Under the pieces are notes generated by a model, which was given only the letters and a program-made list of their open reading frames with translations, was not told the origin of the DNA and searched no databases. This document shows, in pieces, positions 22,392 to 41,576 of a stretch of DNA of 64,000 bases. Position 1 is the stretch's first letter; every line of letters starts with the position of its first letter. The position numbers and the translations under genes are program-made. The DNA is taken from the NCBI RefSeq assembly GCF_017352095.1, contig NZ_CP071463.1:372001-436000 (forward strand). The letters are read 5' to 3'. This DNA comes from Natrinema longum (lineage in GTDB: Archaea > Halobacteriota > Halobacteria > Halobacteriales > Natrialbaceae).

Positions 22392-22646
22392 AGGTAGCCG
22401 AGATCCTCGAGTCGTTCCTTCGTTTCGTCTCGCATCGAGACGGTACCGTCGGCGTCAGCGTGGTCGAACGACTGGAGCCAGTCGTCGAGTGTTGACTCGA
22501 GTTCGTCGACGACCGCCGGGTTGGCTTCGGCTACGTTCTCGGATTCGTCGGGGTCTTCGTCGACGCGGTACAGTTCGATCGAGCCGTCGGCTAACGCCTA
22601 AGCTCTCGGTCTTTCCACGCGCGCAGTACTACAAGCCTACGCGTCA
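22385..22646 (-). pseudogene. Remnant: C-terminal part of a sulfatase-like gene, frameshifted
   Basis: Read leftward, ATG at 22646 (overlapping the stop of the upstream gene) encodes MTRRLVVLRAWKDREL and then stops. One base out of frame from about 22597 the sequence continues as ADGSIELYRVDEDPDESENV ... LDDWLQSFDHADADGTVSM ... ERLEDLGYLQ and ends at 22385. Together they look like the last about 85 codons of a sulfatase (RAWKDRELxx then ELYRVDEDPDE is the usual tail). The N-terminal catalytic part is absent. Loss by recombination within a glycan locus is the likely origin. Confidence 0.65.
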
Positions 22647-23567
22647 TCGGTACCCTAACGCCTCAAGCCGATCGGTTGTTTGCTCTGGAATGTCGATCTG
22701 TTTCGCTTCGTCTGCCGTCGTGATTGTCCTCCGATCCTCATATGGCAGCTCCAGCCAAGGGACTGACGTGAGCTCTCTGTCCGTGAATCGTGGCGGATGG
22801 CCGTATATCGTGAGTGGGAGACGCGAGATTCGCTTTCCGAACAGATTCCCGTGGTCGCTCGTGACAACCGTTTTCCCGTCAATCGATTCGGTAAGCTCCT
22901 GAACGTGGGGTAGTACGATCTTGAGGTTCTCGCGGTATGCTTTCCGGGCAGTCTTGGAATCTATTTCACCGGCAGACATCCGTTCCCAAATTGTTAGGCC
23001 TTCTCGCGGTCGAAGGCCACCAGTGAAGCTCGCCTGTGGTCCAAGATCACGGCCTGTCTCCCCAATAAACGGATAGTGTGGCTGCATGTAATGGACGATA
23101 AGCCGTTTCTGTGGGTATTCTTCTGCGATTTCGAGGGCAGAGTGCGTAACAGTGTCGGGAGTGACGGTATCTAACTCATCGTTCCATTGATCGGACCAGA
23201 CATGTTCAACATGCGCAAACGTATCCTCGTATCCGACGAGTTGGGGGCTCGCGGAGACGTACGCGATGTCAAACTGGTCGTCGGAAAAATTCTTCTCAAG
23301 GAACTCGCTGGTATGGCTCGCGTTGCTCTGGATGCGCTCGAGAGTGCCGTCGAACTGGTGTGTGTCTCTGAAGGTATCGAACCGACAGGCATCGAGGATA
23401 ACGAGCGTGTCCCAGTCGCGCTCATAGTAGCTCTCAACCGGTGTATAGTCTCGTGAGGTAACTGAGCGAGCGAGTGTTTGGCGGATCCGTCGCCGGACTC
23501 GTTCGGGATTCTTGATAGCTTTGCGTGCGTCTGTGACGATGGATTTCGGTGATATGGAGGGAGTCAT
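22644..23567 (-). CDS. Alkaline-phosphatase-superfamily (sulfatase-like) enzyme
   Basis: 307 residues, soluble but with a basic amphipathic N-terminus (VRRRIRQTLARSV). Metal-site residues are visible in WDTLVILDACRFDTF (D59), HYMQPHYPF and VVTSDHGNLFG (Asp-His). The sulfatase CxPSR motif is missing; T86 in ASHTSEFLEKNF is placed where LtaS/EptA-type phosphotransferases have a Thr nucleophile and is conserved in the paralogue at 26621-27571. It may add or remove a charged substituent (phosphate or sulfate type) on the surface glycan; this is inference. A minus-strand TATA (about 23590-23594) lies 25 nt before the ATG. Confidence 0.72.
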   Translation of the reverse strand: MTPSISPKSIVTDARKAIKNPERVRRRIRQTLARSVTSRDYTPVESYYERDWDTLVILDACRFDTFRDTHQFDGTLERIQSNASHTSEFLEKNFSDDQFDIAYVSASPQLVGYEDTFAHVEHVWSDQWNDELDTVTPDTVTHSALEIAEEYPQKRLIVHYMQPHYPFIGETGRDLGPQASFTGGLRPREGLTIWERMSAGEIDSKTARKAYRENLKIVLPHVQELTESIDGKTVVTSDHGNLFGKRISRLPLTIYGHPPRFTDRELTSVPWLELPYEDRRTITTADEAKQIDIPEQTTDRLEALGYR

Positions 23568-23589
23568 ACTTATTTTGAGTAGGGGTTGG

Positions 23590-23594
23590 TTATA
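23590..23594 (-). promoter_or_regulatory. TATA box of the sulfatase-like gene
   Basis: ACTATAACC on the minus strand is centred about 25 nt before the ATG at 23567, consistent with a leaderless transcript. Confidence 0.5.
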
Positions 23595-23642
23595 GTCTCC
23601 CTCACTAAGTCATAACCAATCGACTTTCTCAGCATCTTTATC

Positions 23643-23735
23643 CTATACGCTCTCGATGTGTTTCCCAAGGTAGTGCTTTTGAAACGTCTCGTAGCACGTT
23701 GCTTCATCCATGCCTAAGACGATAGTATCAGTCAT
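23643..23735 (-). CDS. Small 30-residue ORF coupled to the GT4 gene
   Basis: Starting at ATG 23735 inside the stop of the upstream glycosyltransferase gene (ATGA overlap), it encodes MTDTIVLGMDEATCYETFQK and 10 further residues ending GKHIESV. The start looks like the first beta strand of a larger enzyme, so this may be the 5' stub of a truncated gene rather than a true small protein. I do not recognise the family. Confidence 0.35.
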   Translation of the reverse strand: MTDTIVLGMDEATCYETFQKHYLGKHIESV

Positions 23736-24892
23736 TGTCTTTCTTTGATTGCTTCTTCTATTTTTTTCGCCAGTGTATCCCACGTTCTATTCTCGATGAT
23801 ATATTTCCTTCCACGTTTTCCCATTTCCACCCGGTCCTCATTGGACATCTCATGTAACGACTCGAGAGCCGATTCGACTTCATGTTGGGAAGGTGTGCGC
23901 ACAATCTCACCCAAGTTTTCCGATTCGACAAACGAAAGTGAATCGGAGTGTGTTGCAATAACAGGGCGTTCACAGCTTAGATACTCGAATACCTTCATTG
24001 GACTTCCCCAATGATCTGGGTCGATAGCACCATAGGCGGCATCAGTCGCAGAAATATACGTATTTACCGTCTCGTGATCGACGAACCCAGTAAAGTGTGC
24101 ATCCACATCTAAGGTCTTTGCGAGGGATTCCATTTGCTCGTGTTCGGGTCCTTCGCCGACTAGCAATAGTTTGATTTCTTTCTGAGAACTATCTACTGCT
24201 CTCAGTAGTGGGTCGACGCAATGATATTTTTTGAAACTGCCGACAAATCCGATTACGAAATCATCGTCTCGGAATTCCGCATCAATCTGCGCTCTAGCTT
24301 TCTGACGGGGTATCGGCCGGAACTGATCAGTATCAACGCCATGGTGGAACGTTTCAGTCGGGGTATTCGCAAAGCCACTTCGCGATCGGATCATGTCTCT
24401 GGCTTCATCGTATGCAGCGAATGCCTGTGTACTATTCATCGCGTTTATTTTCACAATTCCTTTCGCTATTGCCGTCGCCCCGGGGAAGGGAGACATCTTA
24501 GCAATGTTCTTCTCTAGCATCCCTTCTACAAGAAGAATTTGTGGAATGTCGTACCAGTACGAAAATAGTGGAGGTGAAACCAACCCAGGTTTTAACGGGG
24601 TAACAATGCCATCTATTGGTTTAGTTCGGTGTATCTTTTGAAGGTGATTTATAATCTCTGGTTGAATTCGAAGGTTCCATTTCGGATCCTGTCGCCGTTT
24701 TTTTGAGAGATAGTGGACTGATATATTGTCCGACGAGAGTAGTTCTGTTTTTTCACGTTTAGGGTAGGGACAGATAATCTCGAGTGAGCACCCCTCGAGC
24801 TCGTTTAGGGAGTTTGCGACTTCCCTCGAGTAGAGGTTCTGCCCGGATGTACCAGATAAGTCAACTAGTGTTACGAAGATGATTCTTGTCAT
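23732..24892 (-). CDS. GT4-family glycosyltransferase (low-GC)
   Basis: 386-residue GT-B enzyme. N-terminal VDLSGTSGQNLYSREVANSL is the acceptor-domain glycine loop; donor-domain motifs are VIGFVGSFKKYHCVDPLLRA, LLLVGEGPEHEQM, FTGFVDHETVNTYISATD and SPMKVFEYLSCERPVIAT (E-x7-E region). It is more AT-rich than flanking genes and belongs to the imported glycan segment. An AT-rich AAATAATC at 24911-24918 (minus strand) is at promoter distance from the ATG at 24892. Donor sugar unknown. Confidence 0.85.
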   Translation of the reverse strand: MTRIIFVTLVDLSGTSGQNLYSREVANSLNELEGCSLEIICPYPKREKTELLSSDNISVHYLSKKRRQDPKWNLRIQPEIINHLQKIHRTKPIDGIVTPLKPGLVSPPLFSYWYDIPQILLVEGMLEKNIAKMSPFPGATAIAKGIVKINAMNSTQAFAAYDEARDMIRSRSGFANTPTETFHHGVDTDQFRPIPRQKARAQIDAEFRDDDFVIGFVGSFKKYHCVDPLLRAVDSSQKEIKLLLVGEGPEHEQMESLAKTLDVDAHFTGFVDHETVNTYISATDAAYGAIDPDHWGSPMKVFEYLSCERPVIATHSDSLSFVESENLGEIVRTPSQHEVESALESLHEMSNEDRVEMGKRGRKYIIENRTWDTLAKKIEEAIKERQ

Positions 24893-25329
24893 TTCTCACA
24901 GCTCAGATTATTTCGGTAATTCATTTTCATATATCCGTTATTTCCTATCTGCTTGCAATCTTGTCTGGTAGAATATATAAAGCACGTATTTAATCACCAC
25001 TGCTCTATGAGTAAAGGAGATATAGATAAAAAAGTGTATCTAAATCCATTTTGGAGAAATAAATTCTATATTTTATTTTCACACAACATCCACATATTAG
25101 AAATGGCCTGGCATAGCCGAATTGAGGAAATAATCTAATTATTCATTTAATTAGAATGGGAAACTCACAATATTAATCTACTAGATAATAGATGATGGCA
25201 TAGTTGAACAACCATTCTGTCTTCAACTACAAAGTATTTTACTCGAGGTTTTCACCAAGAGGTAGACTCCTAGAGCGGAAGATTTATTGATGGCATTAAA
25301 TAACGCTCGATATGACTGAGTTGATCTGA
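24893..25329. other. AT-rich intergenic region
   Basis: About 440 bp of strongly AT-rich DNA between divergent glycan genes. It holds the promoter of the leftward GT4 gene, a possible leaderless small ORF at 25007-25138, and no other recognisable gene. Its composition matches the neighbouring polymerase and flippase genes and contrasts with the high-GC chromosome. Confidence 0.5.
25007..25138 (+). CDS. Candidate small protein, 43 residues
   Basis: The ATG at 25007 lies 31 nt after the centre of ATATATAA (24973-24980), a well-placed TATA box. The predicted peptide starts MSKGDIDKKVYLNPFWRNKF and is rich in aromatic and basic residues, unusual for a halophile. No family is recognised. It may be a real small protein of the imported island or a chance frame in AT-rich DNA. 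Confidence 0.25.
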   Translation: MSKGDIDKKVYLNPFWRNKFYILFSHNIHILEMAWHSRIEEII

Positions 25330-26562
25330 ATGCGATCACATAATACCAGCTATAGTTCGCAGAAACTACCAAATCTGAGGACTATATATTTCATTACCTT
25401 TTTACTAATCATATTATTGTCTACTTTTTTTAGAGGAATCGATCTAGTCGGGAGTATTTCAACAACTTATGTCCTATTGCCACTCTCAGTGCTTGTAGTG
25501 TTTTTTTCCTCTATAAAAATAGTTACTGAGAAAAAATTCCGCATATCATATAATATGTTGATACTCACAGCCATAGTTCTCCTATTAACCTTATCATTTT
25601 ATTATAATCTAATCTATAATCCAATGCCAGAAAAGGCACTAAGGTTCTATGTAGAGTTCATTCTAGGTCCTCTAATTTTATTAGCATCAATAACTCTAAC
25701 TGACAAGAACACACTGAAATTAGCCTATAGGTGGATTGTAGCCACCGGCGCGATTGTGTCACTTTATATATTGGCATACATAATAAACTCCGGATTGGAT
25801 TCGATAAGACGAGTTGCGGTTGGTGACGGAATTCCGTTAGCTATTTCAGCTAATTACTTATCAAGTATATTTGGTATCGCGATCGTTATTGCGACAGCAC
25901 AGATACTAACTGAATATAGTTGGAAGAAATCTCGATTAGAACTAATTGCTCTTCCAGTGTTGGCTTTTGGACTCATTCTGACAGGTTCTCGGGCAGCTAT
26001 GATTGGAGTCGGACTTTCATTTATACTGATACTTCTTTCTACAAGGTCAATGAGAATCTTAGTTCCTACATCTGCTCTTGGAGTTGGTAGTATTATTATT
26101 GTTGTAGTCCTTAGATCATTTTTTAACTTTACTGGCGGATATAGGTTTACGTTAGAACATATTTTGTACTCTATTGGACTTCTATACAATTTAATTACAA
26201 GTTCTCTGCAGGAGGTAATCCAAACGCCTATGTCCATTCTCTTTGGCGTTGGGTTCTACCGATATGCTCCGATTTCCTCGCCTCATGTCGTCGATGCCGG
26301 GTACCCACATAACTATCTCGCTAGTGCCATCATCCATATTGGATTCCCAACTGCGATCGCCCTTGCCTTGCTGATATTGGTAACTCTCAAGCAATTATTT
26401 ATTCTATCAATATTTCAAAAAGAGAGTTATTATTTGCCACTGGCAACCCTTTGTTCTCTCGTTGTTTTCCTCATGTACATGATGTCTGAAGGAAGATTGA
26501 CGCGAATGTATTCGTTTTGGATGTTTGCCGGTATAACTCAGTCTCTGATTCGGGATATCTGA
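25330..26562 (+). CDS. Wzy/O-antigen-ligase-like membrane polymerase
   Basis: 410-residue polytopic protein with about 10-12 hydrophobic helices spread over the whole length and a larger loop near residues 285-330. The segment LILTGSRAAMIGVGLSFILI is the hallmark of the O-antigen ligase/polymerase (Wzy_C) family. It would polymerise or ligate lipid-linked glycan units on the outer face of the membrane. Codon use is AT-rich and plainly foreign to the high-GC background. Together with the flippase gene at 27618-29057 it suggests a Wzx/Wzy-type exopolysaccharide or S-layer glycan pathway. Confidence 0.8.
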   Translation: MRSHNTSYSSQKLPNLRTIYFITFLLIILLSTFFRGIDLVGSISTTYVLLPLSVLVVFFSSIKIVTEKKFRISYNMLILTAIVLLLTLSFYYNLIYNPMPEKALRFYVEFILGPLILLASITLTDKNTLKLAYRWIVATGAIVSLYILAYIINSGLDSIRRVAVGDGIPLAISANYLSSIFGIAIVIATAQILTEYSWKKSRLELIALPVLAFGLILTGSRAAMIGVGLSFILILLSTRSMRILVPTSALGVGSIIIVVVLRSFFNFTGGYRFTLEHILYSIGLLYNLITSSLQEVIQTPMSILFGVGFYRYAPISSPHVVDAGYPHNYLASAIIHIGFPTAIALALLILVTLKQLFILSIFQKESYYLPLATLCSLVVFLMYMMSEGRLTRMYSFWMFAGITQSLIRDI

Positions 26563-26620
26563 TCACAGTAACCAGTAGTTCCAAGTTATTTATATATGCG
26601 GAAAAACAGCCAAGATGGAG

Positions 26621-27571
26621 TTATAAATACCCCAGATCCTGCAATCGTTGATCCACAACCTCCGACTCAACGTTATCAGTTGATTCAGTACTCTCACCGG
26701 CAACGATTTCCCGTCGTGTCTCACCATCGTATACGAACCACGGAACTTTGACTAGCGGTTCGTCATATAGCCCACGCGGATGTCCGTATTCTCTGATCGG
26801 GGTCGGAAATGCGCGCTCCCCAACGTAGTTCCCGTGGTCGCCGGTGACTACTGTCTTTCCAGACATCTCCCCTAGTAACGTTTCAACACTCTCGAGGGCA
26901 TATTCGAGGTTCTCAAGATAGATCGACCAGAGCTCGTCTCGAGAGACATCCAAGTTTCCGGTGAATTTCTTTCCCCAGACGTTTTCCCCTGATGGGGAAC
27001 CACCATTACCGTCGATTTTCCGTAGATGATCGTCATCGAAGTCCGTGTCAGCGGGGACAAACGGATAGTGTGGTTGCATATAGTGAACAACGAGCCGCTT
27101 GTGTGGATACTTTTTATTGGCCTTGAGCGCAGCGTCGGTCATCGTCTCGGCACGGACAGTTCCGTGTTCGTCGTCCCATCCTTCTTCAAGCCAAACATTG
27201 ATGATCTTATGTAGGTTCACATCCCACTCTTCACGATTGCGCTCGAGTTGGGGATTTGCCGTGACATAGACCGTATCACTGAGATCGCGCCCACTGAAGT
27301 TTGCCCGCAACCATTCCACTGTAGATGATCCTTTCGAGATTCGCGGCGTGAGCTCCCCATCAAGTTGGTTAGCGGATGCAAACATATCATATCGGCACGC
27401 ATCGAGGACCACGAGCGTATCCCAATCTTCAGTGAAAACATCAATACCGCTTGGATTTTCCGAGCGAAGTCCAGCACGCCTATGATATGCGCGATTCAAT
27501 CCCCGTGCAAAGAGTCTGGGATTCTGAAGTGCCCGCATTAGACGCTCAGTCGTATTCATATGCACCTTCAT
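26621..27571 (-). CDS. Alkaline-phosphatase-superfamily (sulfatase-like) enzyme, paralogue
   Basis: 316 residues, a paralogue of the protein at 22644-23567. Conserved blocks: DWDTLVVLDACRYDMF (D57), GSSTVEWLRANF (T84, candidate nucleophile), RLVVHYMQPHYPFVP, VVTGDHGNYVGERAF and a closing RLQDLGYL. There is no signal peptide and no membrane helix, so it is probably cytoplasmic unless secreted unconventionally. Role inferred as transfer or hydrolysis of a phosphate or sulfate ester on a glycan or its precursor. An internal ATG at 27559 is an alternative start. Confidence 0.72.
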   Translation of the reverse strand: MKVHMNTTERLMRALQNPRLFARGLNRAYHRRAGLRSENPSGIDVFTEDWDTLVVLDACRYDMFASANQLDGELTPRISKGSSTVEWLRANFSGRDLSDTVYVTANPQLERNREEWDVNLHKIINVWLEEGWDDEHGTVRAETMTDAALKANKKYPHKRLVVHYMQPHYPFVPADTDFDDDHLRKIDGNGGSPSGENVWGKKFTGNLDVSRDELWSIYLENLEYALESVETLLGEMSGKTVVTGDHGNYVGERAFPTPIREYGHPRGLYDEPLVKVPWFVYDGETRREIVAGESTESTDNVESEVVDQRLQDLGYL

Positions 27572-27617
27572 CGTAATCGATAGGTTTTCTATCTTTCTAT
27601 GTTGGGGAATCCCAGAG

Positions 27618-29057
27618 TTACTTTATTGCCTCTATCAATTTCTGATCTTGTGTGTCGAATCCCAGCAATACCATAATCGATAAGAACAGTACCAGAGCTA
27701 TCGTTCCGACTACACTAGTTGGAATTATACTCCCACTCGCAAAGCGATATACTAGAATCATAAAAATAGATGATGCTAGTATCCCGATACATCCTTTCCA
27801 GTAGGATTGCTCATATGGTTGAATCCCGAGTAAATGATATGCTTCGACAATTCGAATCAAATTCAAAGCCAAAAGCGATGTTGCTGTTGCTATTGAGGCA
27901 CCAATAATCCCAAACGATTGTATAAGTATGAAATTTAGAACTATATTAGAGATAGCAAGAAAAACAGTGTTTATACTTTCAAGACGCTCATGACCGGACA
28001 TTGTCAATAGGAATCCAACTGGCCCAGTACTAGCAGTTATCGTTTGACCAAATGCTAGAATAATGAGTGAAATACGTGCCGATTCAGTCGACGTTCCAAA
28101 TAATAGTAACACTTCACGGGAGAAAATACTTATAAAAACAAAACCAAGAACTGTAAGATAAGATACCCACTTCGTAGCAGTAGAGTATATTTGGTCAAGA
28201 GTTTTCAATTGATCACTACTATACAGATCAGAGGCAACAGCTGGGAATATTGAGTTCACTGCACTAAGAACCAATACAAGCAAAACGGAAGTTTGGTATG
28301 CAGCTTGATACCAACCAACTTCAGTCGGCGAAACAAATATTGCGAGCATAAATATGTCGGTCCATGATACAATATACTGAGCTACTGCAACAACGACAAG
28401 TGGTGCAGAAAATGCTAGTATCTTTTTAAGCTCTAGTTCCGGGTATGATTGGAATGCCCCAAGACGGGATAAAAAATACACTGCAGACAGTAAACCAATT
28501 CCGAATGAAGCAATATATCCATAAATAGTAATATTCAAGTCTTTAAAATAAAGTGCTCCTATCGCAATGAATAAAATTGCCGTGCTAGACTGAATAATAT
28601 CTCGAATATAAACGGCGTATCGTGTTTCTTTGAAGCCGGTCGTAGCGTTTTGTGCCACCATCATGGAGGAAAAAAGTGGAATACCCGCAACAAAAAGTGA
28701 CGCTGTTGGAGCAAATTCGGGTCCAAAATTCCCTGTCCGTAACACAACAAATACGATGATTGATATGATTATTCCAAGAAAAAATGGGAATGCTATTGAA
28801 AGTACAGAAATACCGCACAGTTTCGCCTTATCTCCTTGATTATTATACACTGGAACGTACTTTCGAGCTGCTGTGTCTAACCCGAACCTAGAAAGAACAC
28901 TAAACGCCTTCATAATTACCATACCAAATGCAAAGAGACCGAGTGCCTCCGGTCCTAATCCCCGTGCGATTACCACGTTGAGCAGGTAGCGAAGTCCACG
29001 TCCGACTAGACTCCCAAAGAATGCTACCGACATCAACCTGAGCAGTGATTTCTTCAT
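27618..29057 (-). CDS. Wzx-like polysaccharide flippase
   Basis: 479-residue integral membrane protein of the MATE/polysaccharide-transporter (MVF) superfamily with about 14 helices. The N-terminus LLRLMSVAFFGSLVGRGLRY ... NVVIARGLGPEALGLFAFG is the conserved start of this family. It would flip a lipid-linked oligosaccharide across the membrane before polymerisation or transfer. Strongly AT-rich, like the Wzy-like gene. It lies 46 bp upstream of, and in the same direction as, the sulfatase-like gene, so they may share a transcript. Confidence 0.85.
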   Translation of the reverse strand: MKKSLLRLMSVAFFGSLVGRGLRYLLNVVIARGLGPEALGLFAFGMVIMKAFSVLSRFGLDTAARKYVPVYNNQGDKAKLCGISVLSIAFPFFLGIIISIIVFVVLRTGNFGPEFAPTASLFVAGIPLFSSMMVAQNATTGFKETRYAVYIRDIIQSSTAILFIAIGALYFKDLNITIYGYIASFGIGLLSAVYFLSRLGAFQSYPELELKKILAFSAPLVVVAVAQYIVSWTDIFMLAIFVSPTEVGWYQAAYQTSVLLVLVLSAVNSIFPAVASDLYSSDQLKTLDQIYSTATKWVSYLTVLGFVFISIFSREVLLLFGTSTESARISLIILAFGQTITASTGPVGFLLTMSGHERLESINTVFLAISNIVLNFILIQSFGIIGASIATATSLLALNLIRIVEAYHLLGIQPYEQSYWKGCIGILASSIFMILVYRFASGSIIPTSVVGTIALVLFLSIMVLLGFDTQDQKLIEAIK

Positions 29058-29163
29058 TTTGCAGGTTATCTAACTATCTAATATATAGAGTCAACAGTTC
29101 AACTGAACAGTCGATATGGTCCAAGATCTCTTGAGTATAATAAAGTATGTGGATTGCAATTTC

Positions 29164-29424
29164 CTACTTATTGCGCTCGAGATCGCTCACATCCAGTTCG
29201 CCCTTAAGATACTCCTTCCCAGTATCTGTGAGTTGATAGAGGCCAGTATCGATGATCTCTAATAAGTTTGCGTCGGCAAGAGCCCGACACCGTTTACTCA
29301 CATACTGGCGATCATACTCGATATTCGCTGCGAGAACCCGTGGAGAAACCAGAATAGGATGATCTTCGAAGAAGAGCATAATCTCGTAGTCGACAGGAGC
29401 CATCCAAGGTACTCGCTCGACCAT
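29164..29424 (-). CDS. Small winged-helix protein (PhiH1-repressor-like)
   Basis: 86-residue DNA-binding protein with a winged-helix fold: MAPVDYEIMLFFEDHPILVSP, recognition region YDRQYVSKRCRALADANLLE, and wing TGLYQLTDTGKEYLKGELD. This resembles the family named after the haloarchaeal phage phiH1 repressor, common as stand-alone regulators on haloarchaeal chromosomes and mobile regions. It marks the right edge of the AT-rich glycan island and may regulate it or be left from a virus. Confidence 0.7.
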   Translation of the reverse strand: MVERVPWMAPVDYEIMLFFEDHPILVSPRVLAANIEYDRQYVSKRCRALADANLLEIIDTGLYQLTDTGKEYLKGELDVSDLERNK

Positions 29425-29496
29425 CTATTCGCGATACCCGGCTAGCAAAACGGAAAAATCAGTAGTATCTTCAGCAAGAGGCACGACATACGTCGA

Positions 29497-30283: not shown

Positions 30284-32737
30284 TCACTCCTCGAGCGCGA
30301 CCGACTTCCCGTTTAGCACGTCCGCTTCGGTAACGGTCGCCGTCCGATTGCCGACCGTATACTCACCGGCGTAGGGCACCCTCACCGTCGCCTGACCGTT
30401 TTCCCCGACCGCCACTGTCCGCTCGTACGTGAACGACTCTCCGGAGACGGAGACATCGGTCTCGACTGTTACGTTCGACCCCGGCTCACCGGACGCTGCG
30501 AGCTTCGCTCCGGGAACGACTGCGAAGGCCGTGGCGTCGTCGTCGACGGCGATCGCCTGGTAGTGGGCCAGCCCGTCGGAGCCGTTTCCGCCTGCCCCAC
30601 GATCCTCGAGCAGGCGGGCTTGTGCGGTGTCGGACGAGACGTTCCCGTCGACGGGAGTCACGACGACGTAGCCGACCCGACCGCTGAACCGGTTGTACCA
30701 GCCGTCGGGATCTGAATCCGCTCGGAACTCCTCGTAGTTGCTCTGGGCGTAGACGTACTGCTGTGATTCGCCGTTGACGAAGTGGTTGTACATCCGGTTG
30801 TCGCCCCACTCGCTCAACACGAAGTTAGCGGGATGGGTTCGGTTCGCCGCGTCGGCGTGGTCGTCGATCGCGTCGACGGCCTCGAGCTGTGCCTCGCTGT
30901 AGGTCACGTTGGCCGTCAGTGTGGGGACGTAGATGAGGCTCAGCCCGAACACGAGCAGCCCGATCCCGAGCAGATAGGCGAGCCGTCGCCCATCGGGAAC
31001 CGAAATCGAGGGCTCGAGTCCGCCGTCGGCGGCGACGGTCGCTCCCTCCTGCAGGTCATCCCCAGCGGTGGCGTCTCGATCCCGAAACGGGACCGGCGGA
31101 CGCGCCAGCTCGATGGCTGAGAGCAGTCGGACGACGCCCATCCCGGTGGGGATGGCCAGCAGAATCGCCAACTGGCCGGCAAAGCGGACCTGAATCCCTG
31201 CCAGGACGAGCAGGTAGCCCGCGTAGGTGCCAAGGAGCAACCAGCCGGGTTCGTACCGACGGACGACGAGCCAGGCGATCCAGCCCAGGACCGCGAGTGC
31301 GATGTAAAACCCCATGCCAAGCTGGTAGAGCGGCCCGAAGATGACGAAGTACTCCGTCGAAAACAGCGAGGCCGCCTCGGTCGCGCTCTCCCGGAAGAGC
31401 AGGTCGTCGACGCGTGCCATCGCTTCGGCCCAGTCGTCGGGCTGCAGGTGCCGAAAGGCGAGAAGTACCCCTGTGGCGACGGCCGTCTCGAGTGCGAGCA
31501 AGCCGCCGAGGTGGATATCGAGCCGCCGCCACAGTTCGCCGAGTGCGATTACGGCGACCGAGCCGCCAAGCACCAGTGCCGGCGTTGTCGCAACGAACTC
31601 CGGCTGCCAGCCCCAGCGGTGGTGCAGCGCCAGCGAGAGCCAGCTGCCAAATGAGAGGCCAACGAGCAACGGCAGGCTCGCGAGTGCAGGCGAGACATCT
31701 GCTCGAGCGTCCATCACGACTCGCAACGCGACGTAGCCGGCGAGCGGGATCAGCAACAGCGGCGAGCCGCCCCAGGCGTGGATCCCTGCTGCGACTGAGA
31801 GGCCGAAAACGATGGTGACGACCCACGTCAGCGGCGTTCGAAGCTGTGCCAGAACGCCTGGACGCGGCTCCGACCTCGCCTCGAGCCGTCGCTGGAGATC
31901 AACCGCGAGCCACGTCAGCGTCAGCAGCGTAATTCCGAGCCAAAAGTACTGGTGGAGCTGGTGATCGATGAACCCCAGTCCCGTGTAGACCGCGTGGATC
32001 GGCGTCACTGCAAAGACCAGAACGGACGCGACCCCGACCCGGACGTCCCGAGTCAGCAAGACGGCCACTTTGTAAATCACGAGTCCGAGCGCGACAGACG
32101 CGACGACGGGGAGCCACGCTGCGACGGTGTCGGCCGCTCCCTGTCCGCCGCCAAGTAACTCGGCAACGAACCAGTTCGTCGCGTGGGCCAGTGGTCGCCG
32201 GAGTGCGACGCTGTGAGGAGGATCCATCAGTACTCCGTACTCCGTCGGTCCCGATGCCTCCGCCACCAGTTCCTCCATCCAGTAGCGGAAGTAGTAGGGA
32301 TCGTTCGCGGGCGAGACGACTCGGCCGCTCTGAAAGATCGACCGAAACGCCGTCATTCTGGCACCGGCGACGACGACCAGCGCCCCGACCAACGCGACCA
32401 TCGCTCGAGGATCGATGGCCGTCCAGAACCGCTCGAGATCGAACCCGCGGTCGTCAGCTACTGATGTCGGTTCTTTTTCGAACTCCTCACCTGCCATCAC
32501 TGCTTCGACGACCTTAGGGTCAGCAACTCGATACGCACCATCGACCTTCTCGACGATTCCGCTCGACACGAGTTCCCCGAACGTTCCCGAATCCAGATCG
32601 ATATCGTCGAACGTCCAAGTGTCGTGTTCGGCGTCGGCCGCGAGGACGGTCTCGAGTACCTGGTCGCCGTCATCGCGGTCGGCGAGAAACGACGCCGTGG
32701 CGTCCGAAAGGGCGTCCGGATCGCCGTCAGTAGACAT
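30284..32737 (-). CDS. aglB: Oligosaccharyltransferase AglB (Stt3 family)
   Basis: 817-residue membrane enzyme transferring the lipid-linked glycan to Asn of secreted proteins. The N-terminal about 105 residues form a soluble winged-helix-like domain. A helix at about 112-132 precedes SPANDPYYFRYWMEEL, with the acidic motif of external loop 1. FIDHQLHQYFW carries the second acidic motif, and a total of about 12-13 helices precedes the extracellular C-terminal domain (from about 610). In that domain the expected WWDYG-type motif position reads SEWGDNRMYNHF (W644-G645-D646). It best matches the haloarchaeal archaeosortase-associated Stt3 group. It is placed next to the glycan genes whose product it could use. 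Confidence 0.85.
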   Translation of the reverse strand: MSTDGDPDALSDATASFLADRDDGDQVLETVLAADAEHDTWTFDDIDLDSGTFGELVSSGIVEKVDGAYRVADPKVVEAVMAGEEFEKEPTSVADDRGFDLERFWTAIDPRAMVALVGALVVVAGARMTAFRSIFQSGRVVSPANDPYYFRYWMEELVAEASGPTEYGVLMDPPHSVALRRPLAHATNWFVAELLGGGQGAADTVAAWLPVVASVALGLVIYKVAVLLTRDVRVGVASVLVFAVTPIHAVYTGLGFIDHQLHQYFWLGITLLTLTWLAVDLQRRLEARSEPRPGVLAQLRTPLTWVVTIVFGLSVAAGIHAWGGSPLLLIPLAGYVALRVVMDARADVSPALASLPLLVGLSFGSWLSLALHHRWGWQPEFVATTPALVLGGSVAVIALGELWRRLDIHLGGLLALETAVATGVLLAFRHLQPDDWAEAMARVDDLLFRESATEAASLFSTEYFVIFGPLYQLGMGFYIALAVLGWIAWLVVRRYEPGWLLLGTYAGYLLVLAGIQVRFAGQLAILLAIPTGMGVVRLLSAIELARPPVPFRDRDATAGDDLQEGATVAADGGLEPSISVPDGRRLAYLLGIGLLVFGLSLIYVPTLTANVTYSEAQLEAVDAIDDHADAANRTHPANFVLSEWGDNRMYNHFVNGESQQYVYAQSNYEEFRADSDPDGWYNRFSGRVGYVVVTPVDGNVSSDTAQARLLEDRGAGGNGSDGLAHYQAIAVDDDATAFAVVPGAKLAASGEPGSNVTVETDVSVSGESFTYERTVAVGENGQATVRVPYAGEYTVGNRTATVTEADVLNGKSVALEE

Positions 32738-32929: not shown

Positions 32930-33015
32930 CTATAGTTGCAACTGAACCGATTGACACGCTGATCGCAACGCTGTCGTGCGATCAGGTGCGCAATGACTTG
33001 CAGGTGCTACTATAG
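32930..33015. mobile_element. MITE-like 86-bp inverted-repeat element, copy 1
   Basis: Ends are CTATAGT (32930-32936) and ACTATAG (33009-33015), an exact 7-bp terminal inverted repeat that extends imperfectly to about 17 bp. Inside is a hairpin CTGATCGCA/TGCGATCAG (32959-32985, 9-bp arms). A second copy, in opposite orientation, is at 41491-41576. No transposase lies in the window, so if mobile it would be moved in trans. Confidence 0.65.
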
Positions 33016-33066: not shown

Positions 33067-33912
33067 TTATACGACGACGGTGACGACGCCCCCGCCGACG
33101 ATCGCGAGCGCGCCGAGGCCGAAACAGACGACCCAGAACGGAACCCGATCGACGACCCGCATGAGGGCATCGATCGTGAGGTAGCCGACGACGGCGCTGA
33201 TCCCGAGTGCGGCCAGTGCGGGCCCGAGCGCGATGCCGGGGAGCCCGCCGGCACCCGCGACGGTGAGTGCGGCCGCACCGAGGCTCGCGGGGATCGACAA
33301 CAGAAAGGAGAGCCGGAACGCGGCCGGCGGGTCGTAGCTGCGAAACAGTAGCGTACTCGTCGTCACACCCGATCGAGAGATACCAGGGAGGATCGCGACG
33401 CCCTGGACGGCCCCGACGAGCACCGAATCGAGCAGCGTCGGCGCGTCGCGAACCCCCATCGACACCGACTCCGAGGCGAGCTGGAGGACGCCGGTCAGGA
33501 TCAACAGGACGCCGATCGCGGCGATGAAGACGCCGCCGGTAAGCCGGCCGGCGAGATCGACCGCGTACACGTACAGCGGAATCCCCACGAGACCGGTCAT
33601 GAGCGAGGCGACGACGATGTACGAGGCGATCGCGTTCTCACTGGCGTACGCCCGATGGGGTCGCCATCCGGGCACCGAACGAACGGCTGTCGCGATGTCC
33701 CTGCGATAGTAGGTCGCCGCCGACAGCGTCGTCCCGAGTTGCAAAAACAGCGCCAGCTGCAACGCCACGCTGGGATCCGTTCCGACGGCAGTCAAGAACA
33801 GTGCGAGGTTCCCCTGGCTCGAGACGGGCAACCATTCGACGACCCCCTGAACGATCCCGGCGAGTATCGCAACGACGAGTTCGGCGCGGTTCACTGGTGC
33901 TAGTCGACGCAC
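33067..33912 (-). CDS. uppP: Undecaprenyl/polyprenyl-diphosphatase UppP (BacA family)
   Basis: 281-residue integral membrane phosphatase with about eight helices. The two BacA motifs are present: VQGVVEWLPVSSQGNL near the N-terminus and AILPGISRSGVTTSTLL in the second half. In archaea it probably recycles dolichol or polyprenyl diphosphate released when glycans are transferred or polymerised, which fits its position beside aglB and the glycan genes. The GTG at 33894 is an alternative start 6 codons in. The region 33913-34156 downstream of the start carries a TTAAAT-like promoter and nothing else seen. Confidence 0.85.
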   Translation of the reverse strand: MRRLAPVNRAELVVAILAGIVQGVVEWLPVSSQGNLALFLTAVGTDPSVALQLALFLQLGTTLSAATYYRRDIATAVRSVPGWRPHRAYASENAIASYIVVASLMTGLVGIPLYVYAVDLAGRLTGGVFIAAIGVLLILTGVLQLASESVSMGVRDAPTLLDSVLVGAVQGVAILPGISRSGVTTSTLLFRSYDPPAAFRLSFLLSIPASLGAAALTVAGAGGLPGIALGPALAALGISAVVGYLTIDALMRVVDRVPFWVVCFGLGALAIVGGGVVTVVV

Positions 33913-41490: not shown

Positions 41491-41576
41491 CTATCGTAGC
41501 CACTGTAAGTCACTGCACACCTGATCGCACGACAGCTGCGCGATCAGTGTGTAAATAGTTGCAGTTGGTACTAAAA
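41491..41576. mobile_element. MITE-like inverted-repeat element, copy 2
   Basis: Opposite orientation to copy 1 and about 75 percent alike by eye. It shares a 19-bp exact core CACCTGATCGCACGACAGC and the same hairpin (CTGATCGC at 41521-41528 with GCGATCAG at 41540-41547). The left end CTATCGTAGC matches copy 1; the right end (GGTACTAAAA) has diverged. It fills the gap between the frameshifted gene and the acylphosphatase gene. Confidence 0.65.

Follow-up and report, generated by a model that had tools for sequence, protein, structure and literature searches.

Stowaway-type MITEs are non-autonomous elements of the Tc1/mariner kind that duplicate a TA dinucleotide on insertion. The related IS630-family elements of prokaryotes are likewise described as inserting at TA and duplicating it (PMC2170065), and the title of Tenzen and Ohtsubo 1991, cited in that paper, names preferential transposition to TA within 5'-CTAG-3'. 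Archaeal MITEs, by the accounts in two further papers, usually have little beyond their ends in common with their partners (PMC3852290; PMC3119063). The present study follows up a small palindromic repeat in a 64,000-nucleotide stretch of the Natrinema longum genome (hereafter the window). Patterns detected in the window and in other haloarchaeal genomes make it very probable that this repeat belongs to a non-coding haloarchaeal MITE family of IS630/Tc1-mariner type. What appears to be new here is this particular element, for which no earlier report was found in the open-access papers searched (ISfinder was outside this scope); IS630-associated MITEs are already known as a kind.

A first-pass annotation of the window had recorded two copies, which lie where it placed them and in the opposite orientations it gave. 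It had considered a MITE-like non-autonomous transposon, a structured RNA and a short coding role, and had suggested looking genome-wide for more copies, for coincident ends, for a target-site duplication and for a transposase with the same ends. The features of the two window copies are as follows.

32930..33015, + strand: copy 1, 86-bp repeat, consisting of C, the TA duplication, the 80-bp element, the TA duplication and G
32933..33012, + strand: mobile 80-bp element of copy 1, between the two TA, with its boundary placed from three empty sites elsewhere
32930..32947, + strand: left terminal inverted repeat region of copy 1, 18 bp in the consensus, taking in the target C and TA
32998..33015, + strand: right terminal inverted repeat region of copy 1, 18 bp in the consensus
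32959..32985, + strand: inner hairpin of copy 1, CTGATCGCA-ACGCTGTCG-TGCGATCAG, with arms at 32959-32967 and 32977-32985
41491..41576, - strand: copy 2, 86-bp repeat, intergenic
41559..41576, - strand: left terminal inverted repeat region of copy 2
41491..41508, - strand: right terminal inverted repeat region of copy 2

Copy 1 is intergenic, with an AglB-like gene (30284-32737, - strand) on one side and a BacA/UppP-like gene (33067-33912, - strand) on the other, and copy 2 immediately precedes a - strand acylphosphatase gene. The 9-bp internal hairpin of copy 1 (CTGATCGCA/TGCGATCAG) and the 19-bp core common to both copies (GCTGTCGTGCGATCAGGTG) are present as annotated, and by chance only about 0.01-0.06 such shared 19-mer pairs would be expected per 64 kb. 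The exact 7-bp terminal inverted repeats are likewise found in copy 1 (CTATAGT/ACTATAG), but the repeat in the family consensus is 18 bp. Copy 1 differs from that consensus at 7 of 86 bases and copy 2 at 12 of 86, and both are moderately decayed full-length members of the family.

The count of two copies proved far too low. A search of the N. longum genome with copy 1 and its flanks returned at least 40 copies at E ≤ 0.001, well beyond what chance would give and copy 2 among them, and this is a lower bound, 40 having been scored out of 71 first-look candidates. Aligned with their flanks, copies share sharp, coincident 86-bp boundaries within unrelated surroundings. The 86-bp unit as aligned has the consensus CTATAGTAGCAACTGAAA...TTTCAGT(T/G)GCTACTATAG, in full CTATAGTAGCAACTGAAACGATTTACACACTGATCGCAACGCTGTCGTGCGATCAGGTGTGCAATGACTTTCAGT(T/G)GCTACTATAG, in which the 18-bp terminal inverted repeat encloses a 9-bp internal hairpin; end to end, the 86 bp thus form a single long, imperfect palindrome. 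The element proper, TAGTAGCAACTGAAA...TTTCAGTTGCTACTA (TAGTAGC...GCTACTA), is 80 bp long and holds no transposase gene. Gene context was read from the stretches around copies with a home-made gene caller, by which 39 of the 40 copies lie clear of confident genes. One copy common to N. longum (L052:1400-1600) and its close relative G041 (L096:7245-7441) is broken by a GC-rich palindromic sequence of about 80 bp, which is perhaps a second small mobile repeat.

The family is patchily distributed. In a draw of genomes of the order it was matched in 68 of 243 haloarchaeal genomes and 25 of 77 genera, the named records including Natrinema, Natronorubrum, Haloarcula, Natrialba, Natronococcus, Natrarchaeobius and Haloterrigena, and within Natrinema some genomes have no copy or a single one and others well over 60. 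In G041 copies are up to 99% alike. Forty-eight plasmids carry the family, including those of Haloarcula hispanica, Natrialba magadii, Halomicrobium and Halomontanus; one plasmid copy, from haloarchaeon TuA4, is identical to the query consensus. Phage records searched with the consensus gave no match.

Three sites that are occupied in one genome and empty in another show how the element sits in its target. At L005/L004, G041 reads TTCGAACTAGGTAGTC (TTCGAA-CTAG-GTAGTC) against TTCGAAC-TA[...]TA-GGCAGTC in N. longum (G000). At L002, G041 reads TTCATAAATAGTCGG (TTCATAA-ATAG-TCGG) against TTGATAAC-TA[...]TA-GCCGG in N. longum. For a copy beside a BacA-like gene in G041, the empty site is in G011, GTGACTGGCTATCC (GTGA-CTGG-CTATCC), against GTGAC-TA[...]TA-GCTGTTC in G041. 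In all three pairs the occupied site shrinks to the length of the empty one once the 80-bp element and one TA are taken out (at L005/L004, the entire two-copy unit and one TA); the element proper is therefore 80 bp, its duplication TA and its target CTAG-like. The empty sites read CTAG, ATAG and CTGG, the last two being one substitution away from CTAG. Insertion thus takes the form C-TA-[80 bp]-TA-G, and the doubled TA is the signature of IS630/Tc1-mariner transposition. Among near-consensus, young copies, 58 of 72 begin with CTA and 55 of 72 end with TAG, while both C-TA and TA-G are intact in 75 of 172 copies; their loss in some copies fits decay. The tetranucleotide CTAG is itself under-represented in the window, with 33 occurrences compared with 72 expected from trinucleotide counts and 222 from base composition. 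Most of the 33 lie at 24160-29442, within a low-GC island; from 22600 to 29100, just downstream of the AglB-like gene, GC falls to 35% against 62% window-wide, and the ORFs there, named by eye, are presumably surface-polysaccharide glycosyltransferase, polymerase and flippase genes.

The three duplications also bear on the possibility that a single-strand (Y1 tyrosine) transposase moves the repeat as a REP/REPIN-like palindrome, or that the repeat is an attC-like cassette recombination site. The hairpin does have a conserved asymmetric bulge, a GTAG lies near the end, and several neighbouring copies share an orientation around low-GC DNA. REP/IS200-type movement does not duplicate its target, in contrast to the doubled TA of all three sites, and neighbouring copies in opposite orientation occur too. 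Were the insertion of attC type, the empty relative should retain a site, yet it has none; the cassette reading of the same-orientation neighbours at L135, L229 and L004/L005 was rejected on this ground and, for L135, was dropped because the surrounding island DNA is low-GC throughout. Apparent head-to-tail tandems (L332, L333 and L334 in G007, L336 in G017) were considered as cassette arrays and set aside, since an ambiguous base (N) lies at each junction or close to it, which makes assembly artefacts at repeat-ended contigs the probable cause. Either form of this explanation is accordingly very unlikely.

Some sites depart from simple insertion. At G000:C1:2782923-2785155 (L005, L004), a 2,062-bp segment of low-GC DNA (40% GC) lies between two identical copies that point the same way. 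G041 (L248) lacks exactly this unit, copies included, and has a single CTAG at this point. Its cargo comprises two hypothetical ORFs of 285 and 154 aa with no Pfam match, and a search with the larger found no plasmid match. The pattern is as expected of a composite transposon, and the unit may have had a two-step origin. It is conceivable, although we regard it as doubtful, that the 80-bp element also serves as portable ends for composite transposons, two copies moving unrelated DNA between them. If this were true, a transposase-free repeat would spread cargo among haloarchaea and their plasmids whenever an IS630 transposase passes through, and the composite unit would be a possible natural carrier for moving genes. 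At another site, copies in N. longum (L008:1500-1585) and G041 (L241:1508-1593) occupy the same insertion base in opposite orientation, which simple cut and paste does not explain; inversion between the end repeats would explain it, as would two independent insertions. Four same-orientation copies also lie within 4.3 kb of a low-GC island in Natrinema mahii contig 14 (L135); the island also contains a fragment of a DDE_Tnp_1 transposase, together with ORFs whose ArdC-like and HD-domain matches are weak.

The strong fold of the repeat raises a further explanation, that it is a structured RNA or regulatory hairpin (a small RNA, terminator or UTR element) kept by selection at its sites. As DNA the consensus folds at -30 kcal/mol with a z-score of -10.0 (copy 1, z -5.5), and the arms covary among copies. 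In a shuffle test of 35 pairs, one of them drawn through a gap column and uninformative, 40 cells were two-sided compared with 19.6 in shuffles, none of 500 shuffles reaching 40, and double changes in the arms numbered 153 against 53 expected. Copies at the same site in different species behave otherwise: over four same-site pairs, stem differences were one-sided in 28 cases and two-sided in 6, and only 3 of those 6 were Watson-Crick in both copies. The bulk of the covariation thus separates sub-families of mobile copies from one another, a pattern to be expected where source copies retain a matching pair of ends. An Rfam search around both window copies gave no match to a known RNA family, the mostly one-sided differences at orthologous sites do not show a stem kept by compensatory change, and for several copies the equivalent site in close relatives is empty. 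Flanking genes are arranged in tandem at 16 copies, convergently at 12 and divergently at 8, compared with 18, 8 and 8 for the intergenic regions of the window (same order), which is no clear preference; a terminator role was rejected for want of clear enrichment between convergent genes. Selection for an RNA function is therefore improbable, and the hairpin most likely reflects the two mirror-image ends of a transposable element rather than a cellular function.

The suggestion of a short coding element, with the peptide TLIAxLSCDQV..., fares worst. In both window copies the frame is indeed open up to a TAG at the element's end, and this common stop is real, but it belongs to the right terminal repeat and the consensus frame has no ATG. 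The third-position differences that had been noted do not extend to the family: over 172 ungapped copies, substitutions at codon positions 1, 2 and 3 were 5.8%, 14.6% and 5.0%, so that the second position is the highest and there is no third-position excess, and 24 in-frame stops precede the last codon. With neither a coding signal nor a conserved frame, a coding role has almost nothing to recommend it.

The IS630-type MITE remains the preferred reading, with its short length and lack of a transposase gene, fixed terminal inverted repeats, TA duplication, CTAG preference and IS630 tips. All that the first-pass annotation had suggested seeking was found, namely further copies in this and related genomes, common 86-bp boundaries, a TA target duplication and, in related genomes, IS630 elements with the same tips. 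The last were recovered by a profile search for the IS630 catalytic domain DDE_3 (PF13358) in ten Natrinema genomes, with a second set from other genera. Among the ten, G016 had 22 matches, G019 had 13 and G041 one fragment. Aligned together, the Natrinema IS630 elements mostly end in CTATAGTA(G/A) and TACTATAG. Those from other genera are complete, about 1,055 bp long, of the form TAGTA(G/A)..GTTAGAA...TTCTAACGGTTACTA, and mostly flanked by C-TA and TA-G, with two overlapping frames that match NCBIfam NF033545 (IS630 transposase) and Pfam HTH_33 and DDE_3. Because only the outermost 5-6 bases, TAGTA(G/A), and the C-TA target context are common to MITE and IS630, the MITE's actual partner may belong to a different branch of IS630. 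A search of 1.1 Mb of loci for an autonomous partner with longer matching tips returned only fragments. Genome G088 has a MITE variant with an internal CTAG into which IS630 has inserted at two loci, apparently independently (L302 and L327, 1363-2503). One co-transposed unit was considered and rejected for these two, and because each IS is closer to other IS copies than to its counterpart, independent insertions seem more likely.

Movement of the element would proceed by supply in trans. An IS630-family transposase would recognise its ends, the 80-bp element would be cut and pasted into the TA of a CTAG-like site, and gap repair would double the TA to give C-TA-[80 bp]-TA-G. We infer both this trans-mobilisation and the cut-and-paste route from the sequences of ends and insertion sites. 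For the copies in the N. longum genome the mover too is arrived at indirectly, because the DDE_3 search detected no intact IS630 transposase there. This counts against an IS630-type MITE: its own genome gave no DDE_3 match, and G041 has one fragment despite copies up to 99% alike. A transposase in the same genome is usual for a MITE but not defining; supply may be transient or the gene lost. The account of Haloquadratum describes the same puzzle as G041, young copies with no intact transposase found (PMC3119063).

What had been a two-copy curiosity becomes a defined mobile family that occurs in at least 25 haloarchaeal genera and has known ends, a known target and a likely helper. It is a ready marker of recent movement between close strains, and a reason for caution when genes or RNAs are annotated in the intergenic DNA of haloarchaea.

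Four systems may be compared with it. Stowaway-type MITEs, taken by description of the class, are of the same superfamily and share the TA duplication but are eukaryotic. Haloarchaeal IS630 elements (e.g. L303:935-1989, L313:1429-2483) share the TAGTA(G/A)...TACTA ends, the TA duplication and the CTAG target, and differ in their length of about 1,055 bp, their two-frame transposase and their inner terminal repeat, GTTAGAA compared with AACTGAAA in the MITE. The Methanosarcina mazei MITE with partner ISMma9 is, as listed in Table 4 of Kamoun et al. 2013 (PMC3852290), also archaeal and of IS630 type, at 89 bp with 16-bp inverted repeats, and likewise has little in common with its partner beyond the terminal repeats. 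By the same description it differs in having 5 copies in one methanogen and a DR given as 0. The SMRs and MITEs of Haloquadratum walsbyi resemble the family in being short (SMRs 80-110 bp) and numerous, with prominent inverted repeats and no transposase gene, and in that the partner is sometimes absent from the genome (PMC3119063). The present family is set apart from the Haloquadratum SMRs by their descriptions: SMRs are characterized as leaving the target unduplicated and as having ends that resemble those of no transposon (PMC3119063), whereas the 80-bp element duplicates TA and carries IS630 tips.
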